A stretch of 20,395 nucleotides of DNA from a virus, in IMG/VR virus record IMGVR_UViG_3300032053_000670, positions 1 to 20,395 of that record, one strand, 5' to 3'. Below the pieces are notes generated by a model. It saw only the letters and a program-made list of their open reading frames with translations. It was not told the origin of the DNA and did not search any database. Positions 3,797 through 19,033 of the stretch are shown piece after piece. The position numbers were made by a program, and so were the translations under genes. Each line of letters begins with the position of its first letter. Position 1 is the stretch's first letter.

Positions 3797-4309
3797 TTAA
3801 ATCTCCTTCTCTTTAGACTTCTTTAAGATTATGAATCTTCCCATTGCTGAGTCTACTTCTCTTAATGTCTTGAACCCTAATCTTTTTGAGATTATTGTAG
3901 CTCCTCTGTTTTCTACTCTATGCATAGTGAAAAGATGAGGTGATAATTCAGTAAGAGCATATTCTATCACTATCTTTCCAGCTTGATATGAATAATCCTT
4001 AGTAGGTGAGGTGGAGATGACTGCATGGGCCAATGTCTCATCTCTGTAGGCGTCCAGAGAATAACCCAAGTTAGGAACATAAGTAAGATATATCACTCCA
4101 CCTCTCACAAGTAAGTTTTTCTCTATCACATTCCAGAACATTACTCCATATTGATGAACTATCTCTTTCATCTTATCTAACTCTAAAGTGTTGTACTTAT
4201 ACTTTGAAGCTAACTCAAAGAGATAATCAAAATCTTCTTCTCTATCAAAAGGTCTGAGTACTAAGTTCTCAGTATTCAATGTAGGTGCATCTACATATAC
4301 TCTCATCAT
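3797..4309 (-). CDS. GNAT-family N-acetyltransferase-like protein
   Basis: A 170-aa protein with the layout of GCN5-related acetyltransferases. The N-terminal strand is TENLVLRPFDREEDFDYLFEL (residues 13-33). The centre has a beta-rich core. The acetyl-CoA-side helix begins about YQAGKIVIEYALTEL (108-122), followed by HRVENRGATIISKRLGFK (130-147), which is the usual N.AS....E.LGF region with Ala/Thr substitutions. The canonical pyrophosphate-binding Q/RxxGxG/A loop is poorly conserved (SYQAGK), so activity is uncertain. Its ATG overlaps the large-terminase stop by 4 bases. Acetyltransferase-like genes between terminase and portal occur in other podoviruses, and their substrate is unknown. Confidence 0.7.
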   Translation of the reverse strand: MMRVYVDAPTLNTENLVLRPFDREEDFDYLFELASKYKYNTLELDKMKEIVHQYGVMFWNVIEKNLLVRGGVIYLTYVPNLGYSLDAYRDETLAHAVISTSPTKDYSYQAGKIVIEYALTELSPHLFTMHRVENRGATIISKRLGFKTLREVDSAMGRFIILKKSKEKEI

Positions 4310-5802
4310 AGTTCTGCTTCCCTCGGTAGATTCTTTTGTATGGTACGACTAACAGGTGGTCGAGCAATCTGGTCTTGCATTGCCAGAGCATCAATCAAAT
4401 CCACATAAAGAGATTTGAATCCATCTGCAGTAACACCAAGTAGTTCATTTTCCATCTCACCTAACCATGGAGCTTGTTCTGGGAACCAGATTTGTTTAGA
4501 CCTGAATCTTGGACCTAACATCTTAACCCTGTCTAATTTACTTCCTACCTTTGCATGTTCAATTTCTACAATATCAAAGAAGCAATTCTCTTTGGTCATT
4601 CTTTGTTTGATGAAAGGAGCCATTATCTGTTGATACATTCCTTTCTCTATTCCAACTACTAAAGGAACATTGTAACCTTTATACAATCTTACTTTATCAA
4701 AGAGAATATCTAAGAGTTCAGAAGCATCCCATCTCCCGTAGGGAACATCAGCAATGAACCAAAGATTATCAGGATTGCATCCATTGATGACTATAGCTCT
4801 ATAGCATGATGTCTTCTCTCTTGAAGTAGCAGGGTCAATAGTCATGAAGATGTTACAGGTAGGAAGTATCTTATGGATAGTGAGACCTGAATACCATTGT
4901 ATGTCAGCCCGATGAATAAGACGAGATTCTTCTGCAGATGCTTCACACATCTTCTCTCTCATCCAGATATCTATCTTACCCATTTGACGATAAGCTTCTT
5001 TTTCTTGAAGAATAACTTCCATTGTTCTCTTGGTAGGCCAGAAAGGAAGATTAGAAGCTACATCATACTCAGGTACCTTTGAAGTTCTAAATCCTAACTG
5101 CTTTGCATTGGTAACAACTCTTTCTAAGATACAAGCTTCACCAAGATTGTTACCGATTAAGAATATTCTTGATTTACTTCCTAAGAACATAACATCAGAT
5201 AAGAACCATTCCCAATCATTTTCTAATGTTACTTCTGACTTTACGTCTTCTAAGTCCTGTGGGTCATCTATGATAACTATCTTAGGTCTTCTATCTCTGT
5301 TAGCAAGACCACGAATGGAAGCTCCTTTACCATAAGCTTCTATTCTTACATTCATGATGTTACCATCAGAATCTTTTACATCTACAGAGAATACTTCTGT
5401 GGATTGTTGTTCAACTCTTACGAGTGAAGCAGAGATAAGGGGATTGGATAAAAACTCATTTTCTATTTCTTTAAGTTTATTCTGAGCTAAGGTGGAATTG
5501 TTTTTGATTAAGACAATGTAATCTCTTTTCACATTAGGGAATGTTAAAGCATAAAGAGGAAAGGCTCTTAGAGCATATTGACCTTTGGCAGATTCACGGT
5601 AACCTTCTATTGCTTCTGAAGTGTTACTGTTCAAGAGAGAATCTGACCAGAGATAATGGAATGGAGCTGATTCAACTTCATCTGGTCCCACGTCAAGAAG
5701 AATCTTACGGTAATTGATTAAGTTCTTCTGTGCCTTTGTATACATGTTGACTACATCAGCATCTGTGTAGACTTCAGTCTCTGTTTGATTTACTGGGTTC
5801 AT
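4306..5802 (-). CDS. terL: Terminase large subunit (packaging ATPase and nuclease)
   Basis: A 498-aa DNA-packaging motor. The ATPase half has an adenine/P-loop region GYRESAKGQYALRAFPLY (residues 67-84), then YIVLIKNNSTLAQNKLKEIE, and a clear Walker B, KIVIIDDPQ (174-182), followed by LIGNN coupling-motif sequence near 215-219. The nuclease half starts FMTIDPATS (D323) and continues with VVGIEKGMYQQ (E385) and VDLIDALAMQDQ (D468/D471), which supply RNase H-like acidic residues. In the P-loop the usual K-S/T is K-G (codon GGT, one base from Ser AGT), which is unusual. Length and order fit TerL of podoviruses. ATGA overlaps at both ends tie it to its neighbours. Confidence 0.9.
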   Translation of the reverse strand: MNPVNQTETEVYTDADVVNMYTKAQKNLINYRKILLDVGPDEVESAPFHYLWSDSLLNSNTSEAIEGYRESAKGQYALRAFPLYALTFPNVKRDYIVLIKNNSTLAQNKLKEIENEFLSNPLISASLVRVEQQSTEVFSVDVKDSDGNIMNVRIEAYGKGASIRGLANRDRRPKIVIIDDPQDLEDVKSEVTLENDWEWFLSDVMFLGSKSRIFLIGNNLGEACILERVVTNAKQLGFRTSKVPEYDVASNLPFWPTKRTMEVILQEKEAYRQMGKIDIWMREKMCEASAEESRLIHRADIQWYSGLTIHKILPTCNIFMTIDPATSREKTSCYRAIVINGCNPDNLWFIADVPYGRWDASELLDILFDKVRLYKGYNVPLVVGIEKGMYQQIMAPFIKQRMTKENCFFDIVEIEHAKVGSKLDRVKMLGPRFRSKQIWFPEQAPWLGEMENELLGVTADGFKSLYVDLIDALAMQDQIARPPVSRTIQKNLPREAEL

Positions 5803-6140
5803 TTAAGTTCATCTCTCAATAGTGTGGTCCAGTGGATACCATGTCGTTTCATATCTTCTTTTAACTTTTCATATCTACCTAACTCATTGTTGATTAACAT
5901 ATCAGTGATATACATCAATTCTTTTATTTCAATCTTCTGTATACCATCTTTTTTCATTTGACAGGAAAGGCCCTCTTCTAATAATCTTTCTTCTTCAGAG
6001 GTCATTCCTAATGGGTCAAAGACTTTCTTCAAAGCAAATTTATTCAGACAGGAGATAGTAGGAATAAGATGTTTGTTAGGTTTGATTATAACTTGAGATG
6101 TTTTCAAAAGCTTCTCTTGAGATGTTTTAGGATTATTCAT
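5799..6140 (-). CDS. Unknown 113-aa protein between the terminase subunits
   Basis: I do not recognise this protein. It is charged and mostly helical, with a basic N-terminus (MNNPKTSQEKLLKTSQ) and a C-terminal half FDPLGMTSEEERLLEEGLS followed by ELMYITDMLINNELGRYEKL. A longer frame opens at 6239, but the ATG at 6140 sits 9 bases after AGAGG and 1 base after the small-terminase stop, so I prefer it. Its stop overlaps the TerL start (ATGA). The position suggests a packaging accessory role, which is inference only. Confidence 0.6.
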   Translation of the reverse strand: MNNPKTSQEKLLKTSQVIIKPNKHLIPTISCLNKFALKKVFDPLGMTSEEERLLEEGLSCQMKKDGIQKIEIKELMYITDMLINNELGRYEKLKEDMKRHGIHWTTLLRDELK

Positions 6141-6141
6141 T

Positions 6142-6696
6142 TTATTTTGCCTCTTTACTTTTCTGAATAGCCTCAAAGAGTTTACCTTTGAATGTAACTT
6201 CTCCCCCATGGATGACTTTTGATTCATCATTGAATCCATGATTATTTTTCAAATCGAAGATGATACCTGTTGGATGAGGAGTATCATTGAGTCTTTCAGT
6301 CTTTTGAGATAACACCTTTTCTTTCATATCAGAGATGACATTACCAAAGCGTTCTCTCTTTTCCCATCTTAAGAGTTGAACTCTACTGACGCCCATAAAA
6401 GAAGCAAGTCTTTCTATTGTCATAGGGACTTGCTTTTCTTTACAGTATTCATTGAATACATTCCAACGGTATATTACTTCAGTCTCAGTCTTTGGGACTT
6501 TGACATTGAACATGAACTTCATGTATTTTGAATCAATGCCGTATTTGAACTTATCTTCTTTATCAGGATTGTTTAGTTTATGCTGGAATTCTTTGATGAC
6601 TTCCTTCTCTGTATCATTCAATATCAACTTCTTCCTCCTAGCAACTTTTCTATACTTATCTTTAGCAGGATCTCTGAATTGATATTGCTTCTTCAT
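6142..6696 (-). CDS. terS: Terminase small subunit (DNA-packaging protein)
   Basis: A 184-aa protein that should bind phage DNA and recruit TerL. The N-terminus is basic (MKKQYQFRDPAKDKYRKVARRKK). Residues about 85-125 form a helix-turn-helix region (TIERLASFMGVSRVQLLRWEKRERF). The C-terminal part has PTGIIFDLKNNHGFNDES, the strongly conserved signature of gp3-type small terminases, followed by an oligomerisation/TerL-contact tail (GEVTFKGKLFEAIQKSKEA). The ATG is preceded by GGAG at 5 bases. It is the first gene of the minus-strand operon, downstream of the promoter-like site near 6978-7007. Confidence 0.85.
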   Translation of the reverse strand: MKKQYQFRDPAKDKYRKVARRKKLILNDTEKEVIKEFQHKLNNPDKEDKFKYGIDSKYMKFMFNVKVPKTETEVIYRWNVFNEYCKEKQVPMTIERLASFMGVSRVQLLRWEKRERFGNVISDMKEKVLSQKTERLNDTPHPTGIIFDLKNNHGFNDESKVIHGGEVTFKGKLFEAIQKSKEAK

Positions 6697-6977
6697 ATTA
6701 ACTCCTTCTCATTCATCTCGATGATAGGATTTCTAACAACTGATTTCTACCTGTAGCCGTAAGATTCATCTTTTACTATAATGGTCAGGTACACTGTCGG
6801 GGGTATCTCTAATGGCCCCCATCCCTTATTCAATCTATTCATATCTTCTCTTAGTATATTCATTTGCTATTTCCTTATCTTCTAAACAGATAGAACATTA
6901 GTATGAAGTAGATGATTCCTATTACTATTAGTATAAGCTCTTCCTATACACATACTTCTTCCCTTCTTTCAATTATC

Positions 6978-7007
6978 AATATACCATAAAGAATAGCCAT
7001 TTGTAAA
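6978..7007 (-). promoter_or_regulatory. Leftward promoter-like site for the head operon
   Basis: On the minus strand TTTACA (7007-7002), an 18-base spacer and TATATT (6983-6978) preceded by TGG form a sigma70-type site with an extended -10. It would start transcription about 270 bases before terS. Two direct CATTTGT copies 12 bases apart (6998-7004, 7010-7016) overlap the -35 area and might be a regulator site. The -35 matches the other putative phage promoters here. Confidence 0.5.
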
Positions 7008-7260
7008 CACATTTGTTTATTGTATATCAAATGAGATTCATAAGTCTAACAAATAGTATATGACTGGAAATAGTATATCGAGGATGAATAGTTTATAGTG
7101 AAATAGATTAGAGATAATGACCTGCTTTGCTAAGATAATATCTGTGATTGATATATAATTGAATAGAAAAAGCTTTTATAGAGATGAGTAGGAAGCTAGA
7201 ACCTAGGACATTATCGTCGCAATCAGTATATGAAGTAGGTATAGTCATCGAGATAGATAT

Positions 7261-7323
7261 CTGTAATAGTATTCTGTAATAGTATTCTGTAATAGTATTC
7301 TGTAATAGTATTCTGTAATAGTA
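7261..7323. repeat. 13-bp tandem repeat array, five copies
   Basis: CTGTAATAGTATT is repeated four times without change, followed by an 11-base partial copy that then diverges. Perfect identity suggests recent expansion or selection. No frame stays open through it. It could be origin iterons or protein-binding sites. Confidence 0.9.
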
Positions 7324-7336
7324 AAAGCATTGAGAT

Positions 7337-7410
7337 ACAATAGAAGAATAGAATAGAAGAAGAATAGAATAGAAGAAGAATACAATAGAAGAAGAATACC
7401 ATAGAAGAAT
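7337..7410. repeat. 16-bp purine-rich tandem repeat array, five copies
   Basis: Five units of the form A(S)(M)ATAGAAGAAGAAT: three full 16-base copies flanked by two 13-base copies lacking one GAA. One strand is almost all purine apart from T at fixed places. AGAAGA-rich sequence continues to about 7500. Stops occur in every frame, so it is noncoding. Confidence 0.85.
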
Positions 7411-7607
7411 TAGTATTAGTTATTGTAATTAGAAGAAGACATTATCTTAATTGAATAAGAAGAAGTAGAAGAGGTAGACATAGAAGAAGACATATATAGG
7501 TAATATAGAAATAGAATAAGAATAGAATTAGTTATATCAATAAGACATATTCAATTGTAATAGCTATTTCTAATACTATTTCTAATTCTAATAGATTATA
7601 CTGTACT

Positions 7608-7650
7608 ACTGCTCTAGCTTTTACTGCTTTAGCTTTTACTGCTCTAGTAG
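7608..7650. repeat. 15-bp tandem repeat array, about three copies
   Basis: Units ACTGCTCTAGCTTTT, ACTGCTTTAGCTTTT and a final ACTGCTCTAGTAG. The single C/T change lies in the centre. The array ends just before an AT-rich segment with TATATT and TATAGT, about 115 bases upstream of the rightward promoter, so it could be an operator or iteron set. Confidence 0.85.
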
Positions 7651-7762
7651 ACCATTATATTTTAAGTATATAGTATATAGGGCCGAAGATTATATCAAAA
7701 CAATAAGAAGTTAATTATTTCAATAGGATAAAAGGTGACAGATGAAATAGTCAAAATAATCA

Positions 7763-7790
7763 TTTACAAATATACTATTCGTGATATACT
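7763..7790 (+). promoter_or_regulatory. Rightward early promoter
   Basis: TTTACA (7763-7768), a 16-base spacer and TATACT (7785-7790) with TGA directly before it make a good sigma70-type extended -10 promoter. It lies 40 bases upstream of the first early gene, whose ribosome binding site is AAAGGAGGT. The -10 neighbourhood is nearly the same as that of the site at 10435-10462. Confidence 0.7.
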
Positions 7791-7830
7791 AATAATTGTA
7801 ATACAACTTAAATAAGAAAGGAGGTAAAAG

Positions 7831-7980
7831 ATGACAAAAGCCGAAAAGAAATACATCATCAAAGTAATAGCAGAGGTAATTTTAGAAGAGGGAATAAACA
7901 AATACAATAATCCATTTTCTAAATTACAAGGCAAAGAGAAAGAAATCAAAAGTTATTTAGAAGACTTAGTTACTAATTAA
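7831..7980 (+). CDS. Small early protein, 49 aa, unknown
   Basis: The first early gene. It has a textbook AAAGGAGGT ribosome binding site 6 bases before ATG and a good promoter just upstream. The product, MTKAEKKYIIKVIAEVILEE followed by a short linker and EKEIKSYLEDLVTN, is predicted to be two helices and is charged. I do not recognise it. Early first-in-operon genes of phages are often host-takeover proteins, but nothing in the sequence shows that. Confidence 0.7.
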   Translation: MTKAEKKYIIKVIAEVILEEGINKYNNPFSKLQGKEKEIKSYLEDLVTN

Positions 7981-7999
7981 AGTAGAAAGGAGAAACTAA

Positions 8000-8431
8000 A
8001 TGAACAGCCACAAGAAATATACTCACACACTACATAATGATTCAAAAGAAACTCTGGTTCAGATTGATAAGAAGTTATTCAAGCTAGTAGAAATAAAAGA
8101 AACACTTGATGATATCAAAAAGCTACCTTTCAATAAGACTCCCCATGTAAGGCTCCTCAATCCAATCCAAGAAAGAACTCCACAAGAACAAATGATGAAG
8201 AGTAAGGTAGATGAATCAATACATCGTTTAGCTTCAACTATTCCTACCACAAGAAGAACTATCAATATACGCCAAGCCGCATTAGCTGGAATTGATTTAC
8301 CTAAGGCTATTGCTGAATTGATGGAGAAGAAAGCTAATGCCAAAACAGACGCAGAAAAAAGGGCAATAAGAAAACAGCTCAGGAGATTAGACTACAAAAG
8401 ATTCTTGAATAACACTGAAGACAAAGAATAA
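8000..8431 (+). CDS. Early protein with a C-terminal IRKQLRRLxY motif
   Basis: A 143-aa basic protein with an AAAGGAG ribosome binding site. The N-terminal 50 residues are helical and charged (KLFKLVEIKETLDDIKKL). The middle has a Thr/Arg-rich linker (STIPTTRRTINIRQAALAG). The C-terminal 30 residues, KTDAEKRAIRKQLRRLDYKRFL, match the ending of three further small proteins encoded at 8461, 9053 and 9375. I know no function. It may be nucleic-acid binding given the Arg/Lys-rich helix, as inference. It lies 19 bases after the 49-aa gene and 29 before the next, so all are likely co-transcribed. Confidence 0.7.
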   Translation: MNSHKKYTHTLHNDSKETLVQIDKKLFKLVEIKETLDDIKKLPFNKTPHVRLLNPIQERTPQEQMMKSKVDESIHRLASTIPTTRRTINIRQAALAGIDLPKAIAELMEKKANAKTDAEKRAIRKQLRRLDYKRFLNNTEDKE

Positions 8432-8460
8432 ACTAATTAAAGAAGAAAGGAGAAATACAA

Positions 8461-8640
8461 ATGAAGAAACCTACTATCAAATCTAAGGCCAAGAAAGAAA
8501 TCAGCAAGAGTGAGAAGGTAAAGGAATTACTTAAGGACTATAACACACTGCCTAAGCATAATAACAGTAAAGCAAGACAGCTAAGGAGGAAACTACGACG
8601 TCTAGGTTATTACTTATCTAAACATCAGGGAGGTAAATAA
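8461..8640 (+). CDS. Small basic early protein with an LRRKLRRLGYYLS motif
   Basis: A 59-aa, very basic protein behind an AAAGGAG site 8 bases upstream. The N-terminus is Lys-rich (MKKPTIKSKAKKEISKSEK), followed by a helix VKELLKDYNTLPKHNNSKA and the shared motif ARQLRRKLRRLGYYLSKHQGG. It is one of four early-region proteins with this ending. The final HxGGK resembles the HHGGLH end of the 9053-9337 product. Function unknown. Confidence 0.7.
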   Translation: MKKPTIKSKAKKEISKSEKVKELLKDYNTLPKHNNSKARQLRRKLRRLGYYLSKHQGGK

Positions 8641-8642
8641 TA

Positions 8643-8939
8643 ATGAAGCTACCTCGTCCTAAAGAAATAAAGAAGATATTCTATTCACCTCGAATGGATG
8701 ATAAGGATTTAGAAGCATTACTCGAGTTCGGAATATCTTATTCACTTAACACACGAATCAGAGAGATATCAGATGTAGACCAAGACAAATTCTTCAATCA
8801 AGCGTTGAAACTAATGAGGAAGAAGAATTATTGTTCAGGGAAGATATTCTACATCATCAGACGGAAGATGAATCGATTCAAATTTGGATTTGAGAGCAGT
8901 AGAATATGCCGGACAGTAAAGAAAGGAGGAAAACGTTGA
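8643..8939 (+). CDS. Early protein, 98 aa, unknown
   Basis: An unrecognised basic protein with a GGGAGGT ribosome binding site and only 2 bases between it and the preceding gene. It has a helical acidic centre (RMDDKDLEALLEFGIS) and a basic C-terminal half (FNQALKLMRKKNYCSGKIFYIIRRKMNRF). No membrane segment or metal motif is seen. An AAAGGAGG site lies in its last codons, before a TTG that overlaps its stop (TTGA). Confidence 0.6.
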   Translation: MKLPRPKEIKKIFYSPRMDDKDLEALLEFGISYSLNTRIREISDVDQDKFFNQALKLMRKKNYCSGKIFYIIRRKMNRFKFGFESSRICRTVKKGGKR

Positions 8940-8974
8940 AAGGCATATCAGGGATGGACGAGGATGTATTTTCA

Positions 8975-9003
8975 TTTACAAGTAACAGGAAAAGTCATAA
9001 AAT
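8975..9003 (+). promoter_or_regulatory. Possible internal rightward promoter
   Basis: TTTACA (8975-8980), 17-base spacer, TAAAAT (8998-9003). It lies in the 113 bases between two early genes and would give a leader of about 40 bases to the ATG at 9053. It lacks the TGN extension of the two other rightward sites, so it is weaker evidence. Confidence 0.4.
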
Positions 9004-9052
9004 GATAATTGAACCTAACAACAGAAACATTAAAGAAGGAAGGAGTAACAAA

Positions 9053-9337
9053 ATGAAACAGAAGAAGAAAGTAACAACCGCACCAGCAGTGAAGGAGACA
9101 AAGAAAACGGAAGTCAGGGTTAAGACCACAACTACGAGATTCATCGATGTAGAGTTATTAAGGAAGATAGCTAAAGGAGATCCGAAAGTATCACAGTTCC
9201 TTCACACACTTGATGAACTACATCACAAGTACAGAGGGAAGCAGCATGACAAAGAAGCAATGAGTATAAGAAGGAAGTTAAGACGTAAGGGAGTATATCT
9301 TTCACACCTTGGACATCACGGTGGACTCCATGACTAA
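9053..9337 (+). CDS. Basic early protein with an IRRKLRRKGVYLS motif
   Basis: A 94-aa protein with a Lys/Thr-rich N-terminus (MKQKKKVTTAPAVKETKKTE), a central helical part (FIDVELLRKIAKGDPKVSQF) and the shared C-terminal motif MSIRRKLRRKGVYLSHLGHHGG. I chose the ATG at 9053 because AAGGAG lies 7 bases upstream and the sequence before it looks noncoding and contains a promoter-like site. The frame is open further upstream, and a TTG at 8936 with a strong AAAGGAGG site would give 133 aa, so the start is uncertain. Member of the four-protein early family; function unknown. Confidence 0.65.
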   Translation: MKQKKKVTTAPAVKETKKTEVRVKTTTTRFIDVELLRKIAKGDPKVSQFLHTLDELHHKYRGKQHDKEAMSIRRKLRRKGVYLSHLGHHGGLHD

Positions 9338-9374
9338 CAGTAACATAATCTCAAAAGGAAAGGAGGTGAATCAA

Positions 9375-9602
9375 ATGGCCAAAGCAATTCAAGAGTTAAT
9401 CAAGCAGCTGGAGAAAATCAAAGACCGTAGTTCTTCTGAAGCCAGAACTATCAGAAAGAAACTAAGGGCTGAAGGTTATTCTCTGAGGAAGAAGTCAGAT
9501 GTAAAGAAGGATGACGAATCTACCAAGAAGTCGAAGAAGTCAAAAAAGGTAGATGAGGATAGCGACGATGAGGACGATGACAAAGACGAGGATGAGGATT
9601 AA
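9375..9602 (+). CDS. Small early protein: IRKKLR motif plus SSB-like acidic tail
   Basis: A 75-aa protein starting at the ATG 5 bases after GGAGGTGA. The N-terminal half, MAKAIQELIKQLEKIKDRSS followed by EARTIRKKLRAEGYSLRKKS, carries the motif of the early family. The C-terminal half is a Lys/Ser linker STKKSKKSKKV followed by about 17 residues that are nearly all Asp/Glu. The same linker and acidic ending occur in the phage SSB (16941-17753: KKSKKSKV then Asp/Glu repeats). In SSBs such tails recruit partner proteins or mimic DNA, so this protein may compete for the same partners. That role is inference. Confidence 0.7.
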   Translation: MAKAIQELIKQLEKIKDRSSSEARTIRKKLRAEGYSLRKKSDVKKDDESTKKSKKSKKVDEDSDDEDDDKDEDED

Positions 9603-10496: not shown

Positions 10497-10823
10497 ATGT
10501 CTAGCTTCTATGAGAAGGTCATATTTGAATATCCTCAGCTTAAGAAATGGAAGAGTTGGAATAAAGACTCATTCTACAAAATCAGGGTAATCGAGAAGAA
10601 ATGCCATGACGGTATTGTAAGAAGATTTATCGATATCAGAGAGTTTATAGTCAAAGATGAATTCTCTGCTCTCACTGAAAGTAGTGTATGTCTAAGCAAA
10701 ATCAATCTAGATATTTTAATAGATACCTTAATTAAAGCAAGAAAGGAATACTTTGATGGAGCAGGGGACAGAAGTCGAAGCCAGAATCTTAGCAGTTCTC
10801 AGAAGGAAAAGAAACTATCATAA
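10497..10823 (+). CDS. PC4-like (p15 coactivator family) ssDNA-binding protein
   Basis: A 108-aa protein whose middle follows the PC4 pattern: an N-terminal YKIRVIEKKCHDGIVRRF, then FIDIREFIVKDEFSAL (residues 44-59), then TESSVCLSKINLDILIDTLIKA (60-81). In PC4 proteins a xVDIREY strand, a loop with a Pro/Thr-rich turn, a GISL-type strand and a long helix form a dimer that binds melted DNA. Homologues exist in some phages. The match is by pattern only. As the first gene behind its own promoter, next to helicase and primase, it may act in origin opening, replication or late transcription. The last 23 residues are a basic/Ser tail overlapping the helicase start by 68 bases. Confidence 0.5.
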   Translation: MSSFYEKVIFEYPQLKKWKSWNKDSFYKIRVIEKKCHDGIVRRFIDIREFIVKDEFSALTESSVCLSKINLDILIDTLIKARKEYFDGAGDRSRSQNLSSSQKEKKLS

Positions 10824-12063
10824 GTATCGCTCTATCTTACAACCGTCTTTCTTTCAATTAGAAACAACTAGACAAATCTTTTCTTTGGTTGATGAGTTCT
10901 TCTCGACAACGACGACTAAGAAAAAGAAGTTAACTACTGCGAACTTAAGACTGATTATACATCAGAAGATAAGAAATGTAGATTTAAGAAATGAATGCTT
11001 AGAATTTCTAAAGAAGATAAGACCTTATCCTACTAAAGACAATGAAGTAATCGATGAATCAATAAAAGACTTTGCTAAAAGACAATTTGCTAAACGAGCG
11101 GTATTAGAATGCTTAGAATTATTAGAAGGACCTAACCCCGACTTTACTTCAGTTCAAGACCATTTAGAAAAAGCAATAACTATCTCTACAAGTTTTGAGA
11201 AAGAATGCTATTCTTATTTTGACCAAGCAGAAGAAAGAACTATACTTGATGTTCAAGATAAAAGTATTCCTTCGGGTATTCCTAGATTAGATGAGATATT
11301 AGGTGGAGGTACTGGTCAGGGTGAACTAATAGTATTCTTAGCTCCACCTGAAAGAGGTAAGACTTTGGCATTAGTTAATTTTGGTACAGCAGCATTACAT
11401 CTAGGATTAAGAATAGGATATATCAGTTTAGAATTAGCAGAAAGAAAGATAGCTCGTCGTTTTGATTTAAGAATAACCGGTAGGACTTATGAATTACTTA
11501 AGAAAGAACCAGATAGAATCAAGAATCCATTAGCAGCTCTAAGGAAGAACGGATGTGAATTAGTTATCAAAGACTACAGTGCTTCAGACCCAAGATTAGA
11601 AGATATTAAATCCTTTGTAGTTAATTATCAGAATAAGATGAGAAGGAAGTTCGATATGTTAATTGTAGACTATGCTGATTTGATCTCTCCAACTAAAATG
11701 CATAAGACAGAAAGATTTGGTATCAAAGAAGTATATACTAATCTTAGACGCTTTGCTAACGAACTGAAGATTCCTATAATAACAGCGTCACAAGCTAATA
11801 GAAAATCAGTAGGTAAGTTAGTAGTAACTATGGAGGATTTTGCTGAAGACTTTGCCAAAGCTGCAGTAGCTGATGTAGTAATAGCTATATGTCAGACTCC
11901 TGAAGAATTGGAAGATGATTTATGTAGATTATATGTAGCTAAAAATAGAAGAACAGGAAGACATGGTCTAGTAAGATTGACTATGCAACCTAAAGTAATG
12001 TATCTAGGTGAGATGAGAAAAGTAAGTGATGTAAACAGAAAGTCTATAGCAGACAGGATATAA
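10756..12063 (+). CDS. dnaB: Replicative DNA helicase (DnaB/RecA fold)
   Basis: A 435-aa hexameric helicase. The N-terminal ~150 residues are helical, as in DnaB N-domains (EARILAVLRRKRNYHKYRSI). The ATPase domain starts with SIPSGIPRLDEILGGGTGQGEL (170-191), followed by Walker A APPERGKT (196-203), YISLEL with the catalytic Glu (222-227), and Walker B MLIVDYADLI (301-310). Downstream ITASQANRKS (342-351) and AKNRRTGRHG are the H3/arginine-finger regions of DnaB. Length is typical. I use ATG 10756, 8 bases after AAGGA, rather than the adjacent TTG at 10753. It works with the primase encoded one base downstream. Confidence 0.9.
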   Translation: MEQGTEVEARILAVLRRKRNYHKYRSILQPSFFQLETTRQIFSLVDEFFSTTTTKKKKLTTANLRLIIHQKIRNVDLRNECLEFLKKIRPYPTKDNEVIDESIKDFAKRQFAKRAVLECLELLEGPNPDFTSVQDHLEKAITISTSFEKECYSYFDQAEERTILDVQDKSIPSGIPRLDEILGGGTGQGELIVFLAPPERGKTLALVNFGTAALHLGLRIGYISLELAERKIARRFDLRITGRTYELLKKEPDRIKNPLAALRKNGCELVIKDYSASDPRLEDIKSFVVNYQNKMRRKFDMLIVDYADLISPTKMHKTERFGIKEVYTNLRRFANELKIPIITASQANRKSVGKLVVTMEDFAEDFAKAAVADVVIAICQTPEELEDDLCRLYVAKNRRTGRHGLVRLTMQPKVMYLGEMRKVSDVNRKSIADRI

Positions 12064-12064
12064 T

Positions 12065-12874
12065 ATGAATCTATCACAATTAGGTGAACCGTTAAGAAAG
12101 AAAGGTAAATATCAGGTATTCTTTTCCTGCCCCTGCCATGACGATGAATCAGGTCATTTAGGTGTTCATATCAAGAAAGGAATATACCATTGCTTCAAAT
12201 GTGGTACTTCAGGTAGAATTAAGAATTTAGAAATATCACTTTCAGAATTTGAGACAATTGTTCAAGAAAAGCTAAGACCAGACCAGGGAAGAACCGACCT
12301 TCTTTCTAAGGCTAGTCCCCCGTTAGAACTCCCCCGGGAGTATAAGTTGGTATCTTTACAGTCTGGTCTACCTTTCAGATATCTGAATAAGAGATTAGTA
12401 ACTACTGAAGAGCTACTACAGTATCATATAGGCTATTGTAGTACTGGTATATTTCAAGAGCGTATTATAGTACCTATCTATGAACAGCATAAGCTAGTAT
12501 ACTTTGTAGGTAGAACATATACTGGTAGAGAGCCTAAGTATATGAATGCTCCAGTAGAGAAAGGTCACATAGTATTCAAGACTTTCAATGATAGAGTAGA
12601 AGAAGCAATAGTATGTGAAGGTATATTTGATGCTCTTAGAATAGGTAAAGTAATACCTGCTATTAGTCTATTAGGTAAAGTAGCTAGTAAGTATCAGATA
12701 CAGACTATTAGACAACTAACTAATAGTGCAATAGTAATGTTAGACAGTGATGCTAATGTAGAAGCATTTAAGCTATACTCATTACTTAGAATGTATATGC
12801 CCACTAGGATACTAATGATAGATAAACACGACCCAGGTAGTATGACAATAGAACAGTTAAAGGAGGTGATATGA
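12065..12874 (+). CDS. DNA primase (CHC2 zinc finger + Toprim)
   Basis: A 269-aa DnaG-type primase that should make RNA primers for lagging-strand synthesis. The zinc finger is C22-x2-H25 ... C43-x2-C46 (CPCHDDESG, YHCFKCG). The Toprim domain shows AIVCEGIFDAL (E185, D189) and AIVMLDSDA (D227, D229), with a further acidic DKHDPGS (253-259). Between them, FQERIIVPIYEQHKLVYFVGR and PKYMNAP are typical primase core strands. It is shorter than bacterial DnaG (about 600 aa) and lacks the helicase-interacting C-domain, which is usual for phage primases. It follows the helicase by one base, and its stop overlaps the next ATG. Confidence 0.88.
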   Translation: MNLSQLGEPLRKKGKYQVFFSCPCHDDESGHLGVHIKKGIYHCFKCGTSGRIKNLEISLSEFETIVQEKLRPDQGRTDLLSKASPPLELPREYKLVSLQSGLPFRYLNKRLVTTEELLQYHIGYCSTGIFQERIIVPIYEQHKLVYFVGRTYTGREPKYMNAPVEKGHIVFKTFNDRVEEAIVCEGIFDALRIGKVIPAISLLGKVASKYQIQTIRQLTNSAIVMLDSDANVEAFKLYSLLRMYMPTRILMIDKHDPGSMTIEQLKEVI

Positions 12875-13194
12875 TGAACTATCTACTAGTCATAGCTATA
12901 GTAAATGCTATCTTCTTAGCAGAAGGTAGTAATAGAACACAGTATCTATATGGTATAAAGAGTGTACCATACTATTCTAAGGCTGAAGCTAAACAGATAT
13001 GTATCAATACAGTACAGAATAACTATTCTAGATGGATAGTATCTGGTCAGAAAGAAGACTATTTAATATTTCTTTCAAAAAGATATTGTCCAACTGATTC
13101 AGAGACCTGGTATAGAAATGTCAATTACTTATTAAGAAAGGAATTCAAAGATGAGAATCTACTCAAAACTATCAGAGGCAGTAAAAGAAACTGA
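12871..13194 (+). CDS. Small protein with hydrophobic N-terminus and AEG...YGI motif
   Basis: A 107-aa protein preceded by AGGAGGTGAT, a near-perfect match to the anti-Shine-Dalgarno, with ATG at 12871 or 12874. Residues 4-17 are a hydrophobic helix (LLVIAIVNAIFLAEG). Then come TQYLYGIKSVPY, KQICINTVQNNYSRW and FLSKRYCP...WYRNVNYLL. I recall phage proteins with this AEG..YGI..IC.NTI.NN..RW..RYCP..W.RNV pattern. The early Glu resembles lysozyme/transglycosylase-like folds, but no activity is shown here. The hydrophobic helix could be a signal peptide or the first helix of the domain. Its place inside a replication operon is odd for a cell-wall enzyme. Confidence 0.45.
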   Translation: MMNYLLVIAIVNAIFLAEGSNRTQYLYGIKSVPYYSKAEAKQICINTVQNNYSRWIVSGQKEDYLIFLSKRYCPTDSETWYRNVNYLLRKEFKDENLLKTIRGSKRN

Positions 13195-13849
13195 AAGAGA
13201 ATTGATTGAGATGGGCACAAGAGTTATTGTGCAATCTATGCAAGATAAAGAAGGAATCTTTGATACTATAGAATTGCAAGGTTATGGATATATCATAACA
13301 AATCATGCAGGTATTGAAGAAGACTTCATTAAGCTAGGAGGAAATGTAGAATATCTTAGACAAGAATTACAGGAAAGGGTATCACCTTTATGGTATAATC
13401 CAGGACAAGCTTGGTCTATCAGAGAAGATACCTGGAGTCAATTCTTAGAACCTAGTGGTAAGTTTGCTTATACCTATAATGAAAGATTTAGAGAACAGCT
13501 GATGCCTTTACTCAAAGAACTAAATGATAAACCTTCTACTCGTCAAGCTATCCTCTCTATGTATGACAGACATCAGGATATGAATAATTGGGGAGGGAAG
13601 AGAAGAATACCATGTTCTATGTATTATCAATTCTTACGTAGAATAAGAAATGGTATAGAAGTACTAGACATAATCTACACAATGAGGTCATGTGATATAT
13701 ACAATCATTACCTATATGATGTAGTTCTAGCTATGAAGTTACAAGAATATGTAGCTAATGCTCTAGGTATTGAGCCAGGACATTTCACACATTTCATAGG
13801 AAGTCTACATGCATATAAGAAAGATGCTGATAAGAAAGGGGTATTCTAA
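13151..13849 (+). CDS. Thymidylate synthase-family enzyme, possibly dCMP (hydroxy)methylase
   Basis: A 232-aa pyrimidine C5-methylating enzyme. The nucleophile is in RRIPCSMYYQF (C155). The phosphate/pyrimidine-binding signature is RSCDIYNHYLYD (R179-D190). The C-terminal part IEPGHFTHFIGSLHAY carries H220/Y222, equivalent to the HLY of bacterial ThyA. Aligned without gaps to E. coli ThyA RSCDVFLGLPFN, position 190 is Asp where dUMP-specific enzymes have Asn177. Asp here is known from T4 dCMP hydroxymethylase (Asp179) and favours dCMP. The length is also below ThyA (264 aa) and nearer T4 gp42 (246 aa). So the substrate may be dCMP, giving hydroxymethyl- or methyl-dCMP. Family certain, substrate inferred. 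The gene overlaps the preceding one by 44 bases. Confidence 0.8.
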   Translation: MRIYSKLSEAVKETERELIEMGTRVIVQSMQDKEGIFDTIELQGYGYIITNHAGIEEDFIKLGGNVEYLRQELQERVSPLWYNPGQAWSIREDTWSQFLEPSGKFAYTYNERFREQLMPLLKELNDKPSTRQAILSMYDRHQDMNNWGGKRRIPCSMYYQFLRRIRNGIEVLDIIYTMRSCDIYNHYLYDVVLAMKLQEYVANALGIEPGHFTHFIGSLHAYKKDADKKGVF

Positions 13850-14445
13850 TGAATCAGTTAACTAAAGAACAATTTGCTTCATTGATAGCTTTCAATTCTC
13901 TAATCAATAAGTTCAAGTTGAATAGAGATGTAAAGATAACTCTGTTACAGATAGATGAATGGTATCAACTAGGTATAACTCAGTATGAAGCTATCAATAG
14001 TACAGTAGCAGTAGGAGAAGTACCTAAGAGACTATCTAGAGATGAATACTTTATCAGGATAGCTCAAGTAGTAGCTGAAAGAAGTACATGTAGTAGAGCT
14101 AAAGTAGGAGCAGTATTAGTTGACCCTAGGACTAATAGAATAGTAGCTACTGGTTATAATGGGTCTATCAAAGGTAGTCCTCACTGTATAGATGTAGGTT
14201 GTATGATGGTAGAAGACCATTGCAGAAGAACAATACATGCTGAGATGAATGCAGTATTGCACTTAGAACATAACTATGATATACTATACTTGTATTCTAC
14301 TCATGAGCCATGTGCTGAATGCTTCAAAGCATTGAAGACAGCTAATGTAGTAAAGATGACTTATATCAATAGGTATAAAGATGATGTTAGAGATTTGATT
14401 AGAAAGGAACTAGAGGATGAATCTAGAAAGACTAAGAAAACCTGA
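13849..14445 (+). CDS. Deoxycytidylate (dCMP) deaminase
   Basis: A 198-aa zinc enzyme converting dCMP to dUMP. The active site is H130-A-E132 (TIHAEMNAV) with C155/C158 (HEPCAECFKAL). The substrate region VGAVLVDPRTNRIVATGYNGS and the CIDVGCM...C insert (113-125) are typical of phage and T4-type dCMP deaminases. About 62 residues precede the catalytic domain (MNQLTKEQFASLIAFNSLIN...), helical and without a recognised motif; such an extension is unusual. Its ATG overlaps the previous stop by one base (TAATG). In context it supplies dUMP for dTTP or trims dCMP pools beside the TS-family enzyme. Confidence 0.88.
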   Translation: MNQLTKEQFASLIAFNSLINKFKLNRDVKITLLQIDEWYQLGITQYEAINSTVAVGEVPKRLSRDEYFIRIAQVVAERSTCSRAKVGAVLVDPRTNRIVATGYNGSIKGSPHCIDVGCMMVEDHCRRTIHAEMNAVLHLEHNYDILYLYSTHEPCAECFKALKTANVVKMTYINRYKDDVRDLIRKELEDESRKTKKT

Positions 14446-16756
14446 TTGTAAAGAATGTGAACTTCATTCTACTGCACAAGCGGTATGTCTGATAGGTGAT
14501 GGACCGGTACCTTGTGACATAATGATTGTAGGTGAAGCTCCTTCATTCAGGAAAGAAGATATCTATAAACCTTTTGCTGGTAAAGCAGGAAAGGTATTAG
14601 ATGTAATCTTAGGTGAATTAGGATTAGACAGAAGTAAAGTGTATATGACTAATGTAGTTCATTGTAGACCACCTGAGAATAGAACTCCTAAGATGGAAGA
14701 GATAAGAAAATGTAGAGAATATCTCTTGAAAGAAATCAAGTATGTAAAACCTAAAGTAATCTTTGCTATGGGTAACATAGCTATCAAGGGATTGTTTGAT
14801 TCTAATCTATTATCAATCTCTAAAGAAAGAGGGAAGATACTTGACTTCAATGGTATTAAAGTGATACCTACTTATCATCCTGCAGCTACATTATACCAGA
14901 AGTATTATGCGAACATCCTATATGAGGACTTGAGAGTAGGTCTAGAAAGAATAAAAGGAAAGGATTTAGAACAGAAAGACAGAGGAGATTATAAGCTAGT
15001 AACTAAATCTATGAGAGATGATGTTTATAATATCTTATATGATAGTCCTAAATTAGCAGTAGACTTAGAAACTACAGGACTAGACTTCATGGATAAAAAG
15101 TTAGAGATAGTAACAGTGAATATGTCAATAAAACCTTATGAATCTTTTGTCTGGGATATAGCTGATTATGAATATATAAAAGATATCATTCTACATAAGA
15201 AATTACTCATCAATCACGTTATCAAATTTGACTTAGAATGGCTTCATAGATATAAGATTAGACCTAAGTGTAGGATATTTGATACTATGGTAGCTAAACA
15301 TATACTTGATGAGAACTATCCAGATAAAGAACTTAAGCATTTAGCTAGAGTAGAATTAGGTATGTTTGATTTAAGTGAAGCTAATAATATAATGGTCAAG
15401 CATAGAAAAGAAAACACTAGACCTACTATGGAAGAATATGTAAGGTATGGAGGTGGAGATACTGATGCAGTCATGCGATTATACTATAGGTATAAGAAAC
15501 AACTTAAAGAAGAAGGTCTGTATGATTTATTCAAGACTGAAATGAAAGTTCTCAGAACATTGACCAACATGGAAACATGGGGATTCAAGATAGATTTAGA
15601 TGTTCACAAAAGACTATGTAAAGAATACAAGAGAGATATAGAATCTAGTGAGCATATAATCAAAAGAATGGTAGGTGATATAAATCTTAATAGTCCAAAA
15701 CAATTAGCTGTACTATTATATAGTAAGATGAATTTACCTATATTAAAGACAACTGAATCTGGAGCACCTAGCTGTGATGAAGCTACTGTAAAAGAATTAG
15801 TATATCAAGCTAAGAAAGAAGAACAGAAAGAATTTCTAGAAGCTTTATTGAATTATAGAAAGTTAAATAAGCTATACAATACTTATCTTATAGGATTAAC
15901 TAATAACAATCTTCTTAAATCAGATGGAAGAATACATTGTGACTTTAAGATATGTGGTACAAAGACAGGTAGGTTATCTTGTTCAGATCCTAATCTTGAG
16001 AATATACCTAGAGATGGAGACATTAAGAAGATGTTCATCTCTTCATTTGATAAAGGTCAATTGATACAAGTAGATTATTCTCAAATGGAATTAAGGATAC
16101 TATCTCACTATGCTAATGATAAGAATCTAATTAGAGCATTCAAAGAAGGTAGAGATATACATAAGGAGACTACTGCTAAATGTCTTCATAAACCTTATGA
16201 TGAAGTAACTGAAGAAGAAAGGAAGGTGATAGGTAAGAGAGTTAATTTTGGAATAGTCTACATGATAGGAGCACAAGGATTATCAGAAAGAATAGGTTGT
16301 AGTGTATCTCAAGCTAAGATGTATATACTCAATTGGTTCGAAGAGTTCCATAAAGTAAAGGAGTGGATGAATGAAAGACGTGAAGAGATTATTGAAACCG
16401 GGAAGAGTATATCTTTTAATGGACGTATCCGACGACTATATGGTGCGAATACTGAAACAGGAGAAGGGAGGGAAGCTATTAGACAAGGAGTTAATAGTCC
16501 TATCCAGGGAGGAGCAGGCGATATTACTAAATACAATATGTTCCGCTTGGATAAAAGACTTCGTAAAGATGCTAAGGAAGCACATGTCGTAAATAATGTT
16601 CATGATGCTGTAGTAGTTGATTGCCCAAGAGAGGAGGTAAAAGAAGTAATAGCTATTATCAAAGAGTTATTTGTTCAACCCCCAGTACCTCTGTTAGTAG
16701 ACCTAGACTTTGAAATAAAGGTAGGTCCTAACTGGAAAGAGATGAAGGAGATTTAA
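14417..16756 (+). CDS. polA: Uracil-DNA glycosylase (family 4-like) fused to DNA polymerase I
   Basis: A 779-aa fusion. Residues 1-185 match family 4 UDG: four Fe-S cysteines C11, C14, C83 and C99, VGEAPSFRKED (38-48), TNVVHCRPPENRTP (78-91) and YHPAA (153-157). Residues about 190-360 are a 3'-5' exonuclease with VDLETTG (D216, E218), NHVIKFDLEW and YGGGDTDA. The family A polymerase domain has motif A VDYSQMELR (D553), motif B around K607-NFGIVY (F611, Y615), SPIQGGAGDI and motif C VHDAVVVD (D730). The arginine four residues before the motif B lysine appears to be Lys603. All catalytic acidic residues are present, so replication with proofreading is expected. UDG-PolA fusions occur in some other phages. 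It overlaps the deaminase by 29 bases. Confidence 0.92.
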   Translation: MNLERLRKPDCKECELHSTAQAVCLIGDGPVPCDIMIVGEAPSFRKEDIYKPFAGKAGKVLDVILGELGLDRSKVYMTNVVHCRPPENRTPKMEEIRKCREYLLKEIKYVKPKVIFAMGNIAIKGLFDSNLLSISKERGKILDFNGIKVIPTYHPAATLYQKYYANILYEDLRVGLERIKGKDLEQKDRGDYKLVTKSMRDDVYNILYDSPKLAVDLETTGLDFMDKKLEIVTVNMSIKPYESFVWDIADYEYIKDIILHKKLLINHVIKFDLEWLHRYKIRPKCRIFDTMVAKHILDENYPDKELKHLARVELGMFDLSEANNIMVKHRKENTRPTMEEYVRYGGGDTDAVMRLYYRYKKQLKEEGLYDLFKTEMKVLRTLTNMETWGFKIDLDVHKRLCKEYKRDIESSEHIIKRMVGDINLNSPKQLAVLLYSKMNLPILKTTESGAPSCDEATVKELVYQAKKEEQKEFLEALLNYRKLNKLYNTYLIGLTNNNLLKSDGRIHCDFKICGTKTGRLSCSDPNLENIPRDGDIKKMFISSFDKGQLIQVDYSQMELRILSHYANDKNLIRAFKEGRDIHKETTAKCLHKPYDEVTEEERKVIGKRVNFGIVYMIGAQGLSERIGCSVSQAKMYILNWFEEFHKVKEWMNERREEIIETGKSISFNGRIRRLYGANTETGEGREAIRQGVNSPIQGGAGDITKYNMFRLDKRLRKDAKEAHVVNNVHDAVVVDCPREEVKEVIAIIKELFVQPPVPLLVDLDFEIKVGPNWKEMKEI

Positions 16757-16940: not shown

Positions 16941-17753
16941 ATGAGTAAGCATGATAAAGAGAAGAAGAAATACTATCAAGCTGATAATGAAGCTATCATG
17001 AAGAAGCTTGATGAGTTAGGTTCTGGTACTTTCTTCAAGGCTAAAGAAGGAAAGAATCAGGTTAGGATTCTACCTCCCTGGTCAAAGAAGGGAGTATGGT
17101 TCAAAGAGGCTACTCTGCATTATGGAGTAGCTGACAAGAAGGCATATCCTTGCTTGAAGATGTTCGGTAAGGAATGTCCTATCTGTAATAAAGCTGAAGA
17201 GTTACAAGAGGGAAGTGATGAGGATAGGAAGATTGCTGGAAGGCTGAAGCCCAAGACTAAGTATTATGTCAATATCGTAGACCGTAAAAGTGGTAAGGTT
17301 AAGATATGGGGCTTCTCAGCTAAGATACTTGGTACTCTCTTGAGTTATGTAGGAGACCCAGATTATGGTGATATCACAGACCCTGAGGAAGGGTATGATG
17401 TAGTGATAGACCGTACTGGTTCAGGCATGACTGATACTAAGTATGAAGTAAGATGTAGACCTAAACCTTCTGAGATTGATTCTGAAAACTGGGAGAATGA
17501 AATGCACAACCTGGATACAGAAGTAATCGATGAAGTAAATGAAAGTGAAATAGAGTCAGTAGTAGAAGAGAAATTTGGTGAGACTCTTCCTAAGAAATCT
17601 AAGAAGTCTAAAGTCGATGAAGACGAAGAAGATGACGAGGATGATGAAGAGGAAGAGGATAAACCTAGGAAAAAGGGAAAGAAACACAAGAAAGACGAAG
17701 ACGATGATAAGGAGGATGATGATGATGACGAAGATGATGAGGACAAAGATTAA
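16941..17753 (+). CDS. Single-stranded DNA-binding protein (gp32-like)
   Basis: A 270-aa SSB of the T4 gp32-like type. The core has FFKAKEGKNQVRILPPW (31-47), a putative zinc site H60-x10-C71-x7-C79-x2-C82 (LHYGVADKKAYPCLKMFGKE...CPIC) similar in order to T4 gp32, then KYYVNIVDRKSGKVKIWGFS (OB-fold strands) and YDVVIDRTGSGMTDTKYEV. From about residue 205 the protein becomes a low-complexity tail of Lys/Ser patches (KKSKKSKV, KKGKKHKKD) and long Asp/Glu runs. Such acidic tails regulate binding and recruit helicase, primase or nuclease. The GAT/GAC/GAG-rich tail codons also contain the ribosome binding site and start of the next gene. Confidence 0.85.
   Translation: MSKHDKEKKKYYQADNEAIMKKLDELGSGTFFKAKEGKNQVRILPPWSKKGVWFKEATLHYGVADKKAYPCLKMFGKECPICNKAEELQEGSDEDRKIAGRLKPKTKYYVNIVDRKSGKVKIWGFSAKILGTLLSYVGDPDYGDITDPEEGYDVVIDRTGSGMTDTKYEVRCRPKPSEIDSENWENEMHNLDTEVIDEVNESEIESVVEEKFGETLPKKSKKSKVDEDEEDDEDDEEEEDKPRKKGKKHKKDEDDDKEDDDDDEDDEDKD
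17711..17715 (+). promoter_or_regulatory. Ribosome binding site inside the SSB acidic-tail codons
   Basis: AAGGAGG within the SSB reading frame is followed by four in-phase ATG triplets (17716-17727). Those at 17722 and 17725 have 6- and 9-base spacing and open the nuclease frame. This site decides the start of the nuclease gene and couples its translation to SSB. Confidence 0.6.
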
Positions 17754-18621
17754 GTCTGATTCATCTAGGTATATACCTGATAGTGAGGTCCTGTATCTGA
17801 GGACCTCACTACTCAAGGCTTACCTTAGATGTCCAGCTCAATGCTTCTTTAGGTATTTCAAAGGTCTTGTAATTCTACCCAGAAGTTATTTAATGATGGG
17901 TTCATGTTTTCACAAGACAGTTGAACATCACTATAAATACAAGAAGCAGAAGGGGAAGAATGAAAAGCTTTCTACTCTTCAAGATATATTCCACGAAGAG
18001 TTCAAAGCAAGTAGACCTAGGACTCAATGGTTAAAGTCTGAGAAGCCTGATGACTTTGATACTGAGGGTACTAAGTTAATTGTACCTACTTATTACAAAG
18101 AAAGAGCAGTTAAGCTTGAGCCTAAATATGTAGAGGAAGGATTCAAGTTATTCATACCAGAGGTTAATGCTTATGTTACTGGTACTCTAGACTTGATACT
18201 CACTGATGATTCTATCAGGGACCATAAGACTAGAAGCAGAAGACCTAACTGGATGGATGCTATGAAATCTTTCCAAGGATTAAGTTATACTGCAGGTCAT
18301 GTAGAGAAGTTCGGAGAATTCCCTAAAGACTTTAAGCTTGATTATATTCTCAGAGGTAAACATTCAACTGAGATAGAATTAAGTAAGCCAGTGAAACATA
18401 CTAAGTCCGATATTGAAGGATTTAAGATATTGGTAGCCAGAGTAGTAAGGTCAATGAGAAGAGGAGAGTTCTATCCTCATTGTGAAGGTAACTTCTTATG
18501 CTCTCCGAACATGTGTGGATTCTGGTATATCTGTCAGAAGAAAGGACAATGGAAAGACTTAGGAGTATTCACTCAAGTATTTGGAAAGAACTCAGGTGAA
18601 GAAGAAAAGGGAGAAGAATAA
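17722..18621 (+). CDS. RecB/Cas4-like PD-(D/E)XK nuclease with Fe-S cysteines
   Basis: A 299-aa nuclease. Motifs in order are LRTSLLKAYLRCPAQCFFRY (27-46), MGSCFHKTVEHH with H64, VTGTLDLIL (D157), IRDHKT (D167-x-K169) and QGLSYTAGH (Q185, Y189). This is the classic H...D...D-x-K...QxxxY order. Cys37/Cys41 near the N-terminus and C260-x4-C265-x5-C271 near the C-terminus fit the iron-sulphur cluster of AddB/Cas4-type exonucleases. The frame is open upstream to 17575, but that part is only the shifted SSB tail. The likely substrate is DNA ends during replication or recombination. A stand-alone phage exonuclease is more likely than a CRISPR Cas4, since no array or Cas1/2 is present. Confidence 0.8.
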   Translation: MMTKMMRTKIKSDSSRYIPDSEVLYLRTSLLKAYLRCPAQCFFRYFKGLVILPRSYLMMGSCFHKTVEHHYKYKKQKGKNEKLSTLQDIFHEEFKASRPRTQWLKSEKPDDFDTEGTKLIVPTYYKERAVKLEPKYVEEGFKLFIPEVNAYVTGTLDLILTDDSIRDHKTRSRRPNWMDAMKSFQGLSYTAGHVEKFGEFPKDFKLDYILRGKHSTEIELSKPVKHTKSDIEGFKILVARVVRSMRRGEFYPHCEGNFLCSPNMCGFWYICQKKGQWKDLGVFTQVFGKNSGEEEKGEE

Positions 18622-18622
18622 T

Positions 18623-19033
18623 ATGAATATAAAAGACATCGAGAAAGTAGAGGTGACAGGTGATAAACTCGAAGCAATCTTTAGAAAGCAACGGGAGCTT
18701 GAAGAGAGGTATAATAGCATCGAGCGTTCTAATGGTGCTCTTGTGGTACCTACTCCCATTGACTATAATACTTTTCTTGGTCAAGAGCGTATCAGACTAC
18801 TTATTTACAGAGTGGCTGAAGAACTCTTTGAAGCGGGTAATTGTTTACGAAATAAAGCCTGGAAGCAATCTCAAGTTCCGATGGATATGGACCACTTTCT
18901 TGAAGAACTTAGCGATTCAGTCCATTTTCTTATTCAACTATATATCGAGCTTGGTCTGGGTCCCGATGAATTTGCTTCTCTCTACTTCAGAAAAGCTAGG
19001 GTTAATACCTTCAGACAAGATACAAAATACTGA
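18623..19033 (+). CDS. Dimeric dUTPase-like (all-alpha NTP pyrophosphatase) enzyme
   Basis: A 136-aa helical protein. The metal-binding pattern is VAEELFEAGNCL (E66, E67, E70, N73), LEELSDSVHFLIQL (E95, D98, H101) and a C-terminal YFRKARVNTFRQDTKY, which matches the K..VN.FRQ...Y ending of dimeric dUTPases (dUTPase_2) within the MazG/all-alpha fold. It should hydrolyse dUTP to dUMP and pyrophosphate. T4 dCTPase (gp56) belongs to the same superfamily, so dCTP is also possible. It starts one base after the nuclease stop with GGGAG upstream. Together with the deaminase and TS-family genes it controls the pyrimidine pool. The shorter frame start (ATG 18623) is preferred over one 14 codons upstream within the nuclease. 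Confidence 0.75.
   Translation: MNIKDIEKVEVTGDKLEAIFRKQRELEERYNSIERSNGALVVPTPIDYNTFLGQERIRLLIYRVAEELFEAGNCLRNKAWKQSQVPMDMDHFLEELSDSVHFLIQLYIELGLGPDEFASLYFRKARVNTFRQDTKY

Follow-up and report, generated by a model that had tools for sequence, protein, structure and literature searches.

A small basic module, predicted to fold as a helical hairpin, recurs on unrelated early proteins of uncultured phages

Domain shuffling is already known in phages, and the Bro-N and KilA families provide examples of it among early and DNA-binding proteins. Shuffling has also been described for the Odn/RepA_N/T5orf172 chimera of phage ICP1 (PMC8263062). In these systems, one small domain is combined with varied partners within one phage, as is the case for the module described here; however, the domain shared in them has a nuclease or DNA-binding fold that is already known, whereas here it is an unnamed hairpin of about 38 residues that is carried by three to four proteins per genome. 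What appears to be new is the module itself. Among described hairpins, the UVR domain of UvrB and McsA is a short antiparallel helical hairpin, with a second helix of the A-x-x-[IL]R type. The module resembles it in its predicted hairpin and in the pattern of the second helix but differs in length and charge, and Pfam UVR was absent among the matches listed at E 1 or 0.05. A second hairpin for comparison is that of Escherichia coli cysteinyl-tRNA synthetase (CysRS), in which R427, D436, and W432 contact the wobble base G34, according to a passage of PMC12684709 that cites Hauenstein 2004.

The DNA analyzed here (hereafter, the window) is a complete IMG/VR record of 20,395 bases, and its portal shows 45–47% identity with those of Pelagibacter phages, e.g., HTVC203P and HTVC010P. 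The left-hand part of the record holds packaging and head genes, and the right-hand part holds replication genes in the opposite orientation. Encoded in the latter are a DnaB-like helicase (10753–12063), a primase (12065–12874), a thymidylate-synthase-like protein (13151–13849), a dCMP deaminase (13849–14445), a uracil-DNA glycosylase fused to DNA polymerase A (UDG-PolA; 14417–16756), an SSB with an acidic tail (16941–17753, plus strand; phrog_1192, E 3.2e-39), a PD-(D/E)XK nuclease (within 17575–18621), and a dUTPase_2-like protein (18620–19033). The glycosylase domain of UDG-PolA is N-terminal (the fusion matches PF03167 at 27–163, PF01612, and PF00476), and matches covering both the glycosylase and the polymerase were obtained in records L095, L097, L102, L098, and MW202455. 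The dUTPase_2-like protein and the dCMP deaminase accompany this fusion, a combination which hints that uracil in the phage genome is tightly controlled.

Between the head/packaging block and the replication genes, in the rightward unit, lie the genes of four small proteins, A–D, all of which were confirmed as open reading frames with an ATG start and a Shine-Dalgarno-like site. The original prediction assigned to them a common C-terminal motif, IRxKLRxxGYxLS, and placed them behind an early promoter. Protein A (143 aa; 8000–8431, this and the following features on the plus strand) contains a weak, degenerate, and marginal copy of the module at residues 99–136 (LPKAIAELMEKKANAKTDAEKRAIRKQLRRLDYKRFL; 8294–8407), in which LDY replaces LGY and the terminal LS is absent. 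In protein B (59 aa; 8461–8640), a short basic N-terminus is followed by the module at residues 16–54 (8506–8622), and in protein C (94 aa; 9053–9337), a basic N-terminal region precedes the module at residues 47–84 (9191–9304), which is followed by a short His/Gly tail. The predicted C-terminal location did not hold for protein D (75 aa; 9375–9602), where the module is N-terminal (residues 1–39; 9375–9491) and a 36-residue tail stands behind it, rich in Lys at first and in Asp/Glu after that. Ahead of the cluster, the predicted promoter has a counterpart at 7763–7790 (plus strand; TTTACA-16-TATACT with TG), but this is a consensus match and nothing beyond it, and such matches are abundant in the surrounding AT-rich stretch (25 found vs. 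14.7 ± 4.1 expected). The AT-rich gap separating the divergent gene blocks also contains a 13-base unit (TCTGTAATAGTAT) repeated perfectly in tandem in 4.9 copies, beside 16-base AGAAGAATACAATAGA repeats (7260–7409 and 7607–7647), a region that is possibly an origin or control region.

Comparison of the four proteins with shuffled sequences demonstrated that the likeness is firm for three of them. In the pairwise tests, B–C and B–D scored above all 1000 shuffles (z about 7.5); among the pairs involving A, A–D reached a z of about 4, and A–B and A–C were weak. A profile built solely from module copies of other phages (the foreign profile) gave 17.1 bits for B, 20.7 bits for C, and 21.8 bits for D, the maxima of the shuffles being 7.9, 10.8, and 7.7 bits, respectively, so that none of 1000 shuffles reached the score of any of these proteins. 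For A, the foreign profile gave 3.5 bits, a value equaled by 26 of 1000 shuffles, and with a profile that included the other window copies, the score was reached by 1 of 2000 shuffles. When 23 open reading frames of the window were compared with the 13-module foreign profile, only B, C, and D exceeded every shuffle; a degenerate module considered in the neighboring protein 8643–8939 was rejected. In the leave-one-phage-out analysis, 16 of 17 copies, including all 13 foreign ones, beat all of their shuffles (up to 1000 each). Thus, the claim that four proteins share the motif can be upheld for B, C, and D, and A is marginal, possibly a degenerate member judging from its sequence.

The alignment of the module was based on 14 copies and later on 17 (four from the window and 13 foreign). 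It confirmed the predicted motif as a real stretch, but revealed it to be only the second helix of a larger common unit of about 38 residues. Helix 1 has the pattern LLxxLxxA[KR], the turn is usually GD or a similar pair, and helix 2 has the pattern xxARKIRxxLRxx, followed by G[YFIH] and, in most copies, by xL[SR]. The R, L, and R of R-x2-L-R in helix 2 are invariant among the aligned copies, and all 17 have a net charge between +3 and +10. The module is predicted to fold as a helical hairpin: the AlphaFold2 model of B, obtained with the 17-sequence input, contains helices at 6–29, 35–47, and 52–55 (mean pLDDT 84; pTM 0.58). For the 353-residue protein of L095, the mean pLDDT was 50, and the only confident parts were the module and an internal hairpin at about 131–160. 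This additional hairpin, which resembles a degenerate module, was also noted in the corresponding module protein of L097 (L095 2219–3280 and L097 4301–5422), and both proteins possess a conserved Cys-rich stretch (CxxC, CxxC, CC).

Direct searches with the window proteins in annotated phages, PHROGs, and Pfam yielded no convincing relative, and cultivated phages likewise gave no close homologue. Relatives were reached through the glycosylase domain, which shares 52% identity with that of L095 and 46% with that of L097, and the profile search proposed in the original prediction bore fruit there: the four-sequence module profile matched three proteins in L095 (53–358, 807–1478, and 2219–3280) and three in L097 (around 3–272, 2235–2900, and 4301–5422). 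Subsequent scans with the module added L102, with four copies, and L125, with three divergent copies that end in LRxxGHxGG. The module proteins of L125 lie within 5921–8135; by eye, one of them has an SH3- or Tudor-like start and one is winged helix-like. In the proteins of these four records, the module is mostly located at or near the C-terminus. The module genes are directly upstream of primase/DnaB in four of five genomes (the window, L095, L097, and L102), and in L125 they adjoin a DNA polymerase A gene.

These searches comprised few scans of fragmentary records, with short queries that were liable to rejection at confirmation. A tblastn search with B, C, D, and the module proteins of L102, L095, and L125 gave nothing convincing among 50,697 phage records, and the best PHROG match at the module was phrog_25824, with an unconvincing value of 0.028. 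The module was not found in the portal-based relatives L013–L094, and UDG-PolA was not found in the 15 of these records that were searched whole; the closest of the portal-based relatives, L015 and L016, end before the early region. Annotated phage records with a related SSB or UDG-PolA, searched whole, were likewise without a detected module, and scans of genome contigs gave no confirmed relative, although confirmation with such short queries may be too strict. Several matches were discarded: the MT121964 match (16 positions, 13 bits) was not counted as a module, that of L005 to B was a chance match in a shifted frame, and the sole result of a motif-pattern scan of IMG/VR, a short peptide (ATNIRRKFRYLGYYYE with its flanks) that is the same in the six contigs L006–L011, was judged to be due to chance.

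Within each phage, the N-terminal partners of the module are unrelated, save for a few short matches. Longer N-terminal matches were confined to proteins in corresponding positions of L095 and L097 (41% and 67% identity for two pairs). In all five phage records, the same module accompanies N-terminal regions that are unrelated, which supports the proposal of a small basic module whose partners were swapped. Comparison of the window copies with one another at the DNA level revealed no convincing similarity. Since L095 and L097 hold matching copies on matching partners, the duplication is older than the split of these two records, and together with the lack of convincing DNA similarity in the window, this indicates an ancient spread across several genes. 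Tandem duplication, as originally proposed, is plausible only as such an old event. Judging by the sequences compared, the module is a shuffled unit of uncultured phages that has apparently not been described before.

The leading Pfam match of the module was CysS_C (PF23493), the hairpin at the C-terminus of CysRS that binds the anticodon; it was found in register in 8 of 17 copies (best E 1.8e-5). This match depends on the order of residues and not on composition, since none of ten exactly reversed modules gave it. At the curated Pfam cut-off of 23 bits, one protein passes (24.3 bits), the other six of the seven places having 12.9–21 bits, and no CysS_C matches were seen for the window copies in the Pfam results. 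In NCBIfam, CysRS leads by members (2 of 17), and among the natural chains of the PDB, the profile likewise matched a CysRS best (3tqo 415–443, E 0.036); however, de novo designed helical hairpins matched equally well. The E. coli CysRS scored 3.8 bits against the module profile, and a Foldseek search with the predicted hairpin listed nothing significant and no CysRS. On alignment, R427 of the E. coli enzyme corresponds to the basic A[KR] of the module and R439 to its invariant R; position 427 is basic in most copies, and the base-reading residues D436 and W432 are not kept. The module shares with CysS_C the two helices (predicted for the module), the KD/GD turn, the A[KR] ending helix 1, the R on helix 2, and the subsequent G-[hydrophobic]-x-L. 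Unlike CysS_C, it is strongly basic, lacks W432 and D436, and occupies the ends of phage proteins that are unrelated, instead of forming part of a synthetase; its partners, which are short or unrelated phage proteins, gave no synthetase match beyond the hairpin. The low score, the absence of matching window copies, and the equally good match of designed hairpins suggest that the CysRS match perhaps reflects a generic hairpin pattern, and the likeness may be convergent. By analogy, the module perhaps works like the CysRS hairpin, without a claim of family membership. Smoothelin (PF12510) also matched one module of L125 (E 4.8e-4 with the whole protein), and one smoothelin match at 3.9e-5 was obtained in the search with isolated modules. 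The smoothelin motif is eukaryotic and is matched by a single module member, which illustrates that such hairpin patterns can match by chance or convergence.

Four other explanations of the module were weighed. That the likeness of A–D is mere Arg/Lys composition, or independent convergence without a common family, is largely refuted, and we give this reading hardly any credence. The module is indeed short, charged, and of low complexity, and A on its own would fit; however, shuffles of the same composition never equaled B, C, D, or the 13 foreign copies, the reversed modules gave no CysS_C match, and the turn, the leucines of helix 1, and the final G[YF]xL are common to the copies outside the basic stretch. 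The original prediction had itself named a match due to composition alone as the outcome that would overturn it, and this was rejected by both the shuffles and the leave-one-phage-out tests. The main rival is recruitment to the replisome, in which the basic hairpin would dock on the acidic C-terminal tail of SSB and gather early proteins at replication forks, and the acidic tails of D and of two module proteins of L102 would compete with or regulate the docking. All four UDG-PolA phages with the module (the window, L095, L097, and L102) have an SSB homologous to that of the window, and in L098 and MW202455, two UDG-PolA records free of the module, a search for phrog_1192 that was run without a positive control came back empty; the contrast rests on four phages vs. 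two. Upstream proximity to primase and DnaB is consistent with docking, as are the acidic ends behind the module in L102b and L102d. The tail of D (KKSKKSKKVDED...) resembles that of SSB (KKSKKSKVDEDEEDD...) at the protein level and weakly at the DNA level; the DNA stretch 9492–9602, of which 9492–9599 encode the SSB-like tail KKSKKSKKVDEDSDDEDDDKDEDED (plus strand), gave an alignment score that 3 of 500 codon shuffles also attained, which is no more than suggestive. However, L125 has the module, yet an SSB of the window type was not detected in it, related SSBs occur without the module in SPO1-like phages and others, and acid–base attraction is unspecific. We consider docking on SSB to be possible, albeit doubtful.

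A hairpin of the UVR/McsA type that fixes phage proteins to a host factor, such as a repair, protease, or transcription complex, for takeover appears unlikely. Small helical hairpins, e.g., UVR domains, often mediate protein contacts, designed binder hairpins match the module profile, and the genes occupy an early position; against this, the Pfam matches listed do not include UVR, and the conserved arginines suggest an anionic target. Alternatively, the module could be a tag that directs proteins to the virion, for packaging or co-injection, and not to nucleic acid inside the cell. A single tag on several unrelated proteins is reminiscent of the capsid-targeting sequences of T4 internal proteins, but the module genes always lie among replication genes and not structural ones, and structural genes with the module were not found in the records searched; this explanation is quite improbable. 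The uniform positive charge, the invariant arginines of helix 2, the likeness to an RNA-gripping hairpin, and the position among replication genes make a nucleic-acid-binding tag the likeliest reading in our judgment, and we infer it tentatively, with somewhat less than even confidence. Such a function, which the original prediction had offered beside host takeover, is compatible with the charge of the module and its likeness to the CysRS hairpin, whereas nothing specific was found in favor of host takeover. It should be noted that basic hairpins can bind acidic proteins too, and that no tRNA genes were found in the window or in the loci searched.

As a nucleic-acid-binding tag, the module would touch the phosphate backbone or a structured RNA loop with its helix 2 arginines and with the basic A[KR] in which helix 1 ends, as the corresponding CysRS hairpin does with the tRNA anticodon loop. 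Borne by different proteins, it would make them bind RNA or DNA more tightly and would direct them to the nucleic acid of the virus at an early stage of infection, the specific work being left to the partner domains. A broader and rather improbable proposal is that a lineage of uncultured phages employs a single mobile hairpin, mostly C-terminal and possibly derived from the CysRS anticodon hairpin or convergent with it, as an address label common to several unrelated early proteins. The label would assemble them on the same target, be it tRNA or another structured RNA, viral DNA, or the tail of SSB, and their common compartment for takeover or replication would then be defined by the label instead of by the partner domains. 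The majority of early phage genes are short and have no assignment, and the module is common to three to four of them per genome and kept in several phages. It turns a set of orphan early genes into one question, namely what the tag binds. Should the module prove to anchor proteins to RNA or to the replisome, the function of each of its carriers would become easier to approach, and a very small domain would be added to the parts list that phages shuffle.
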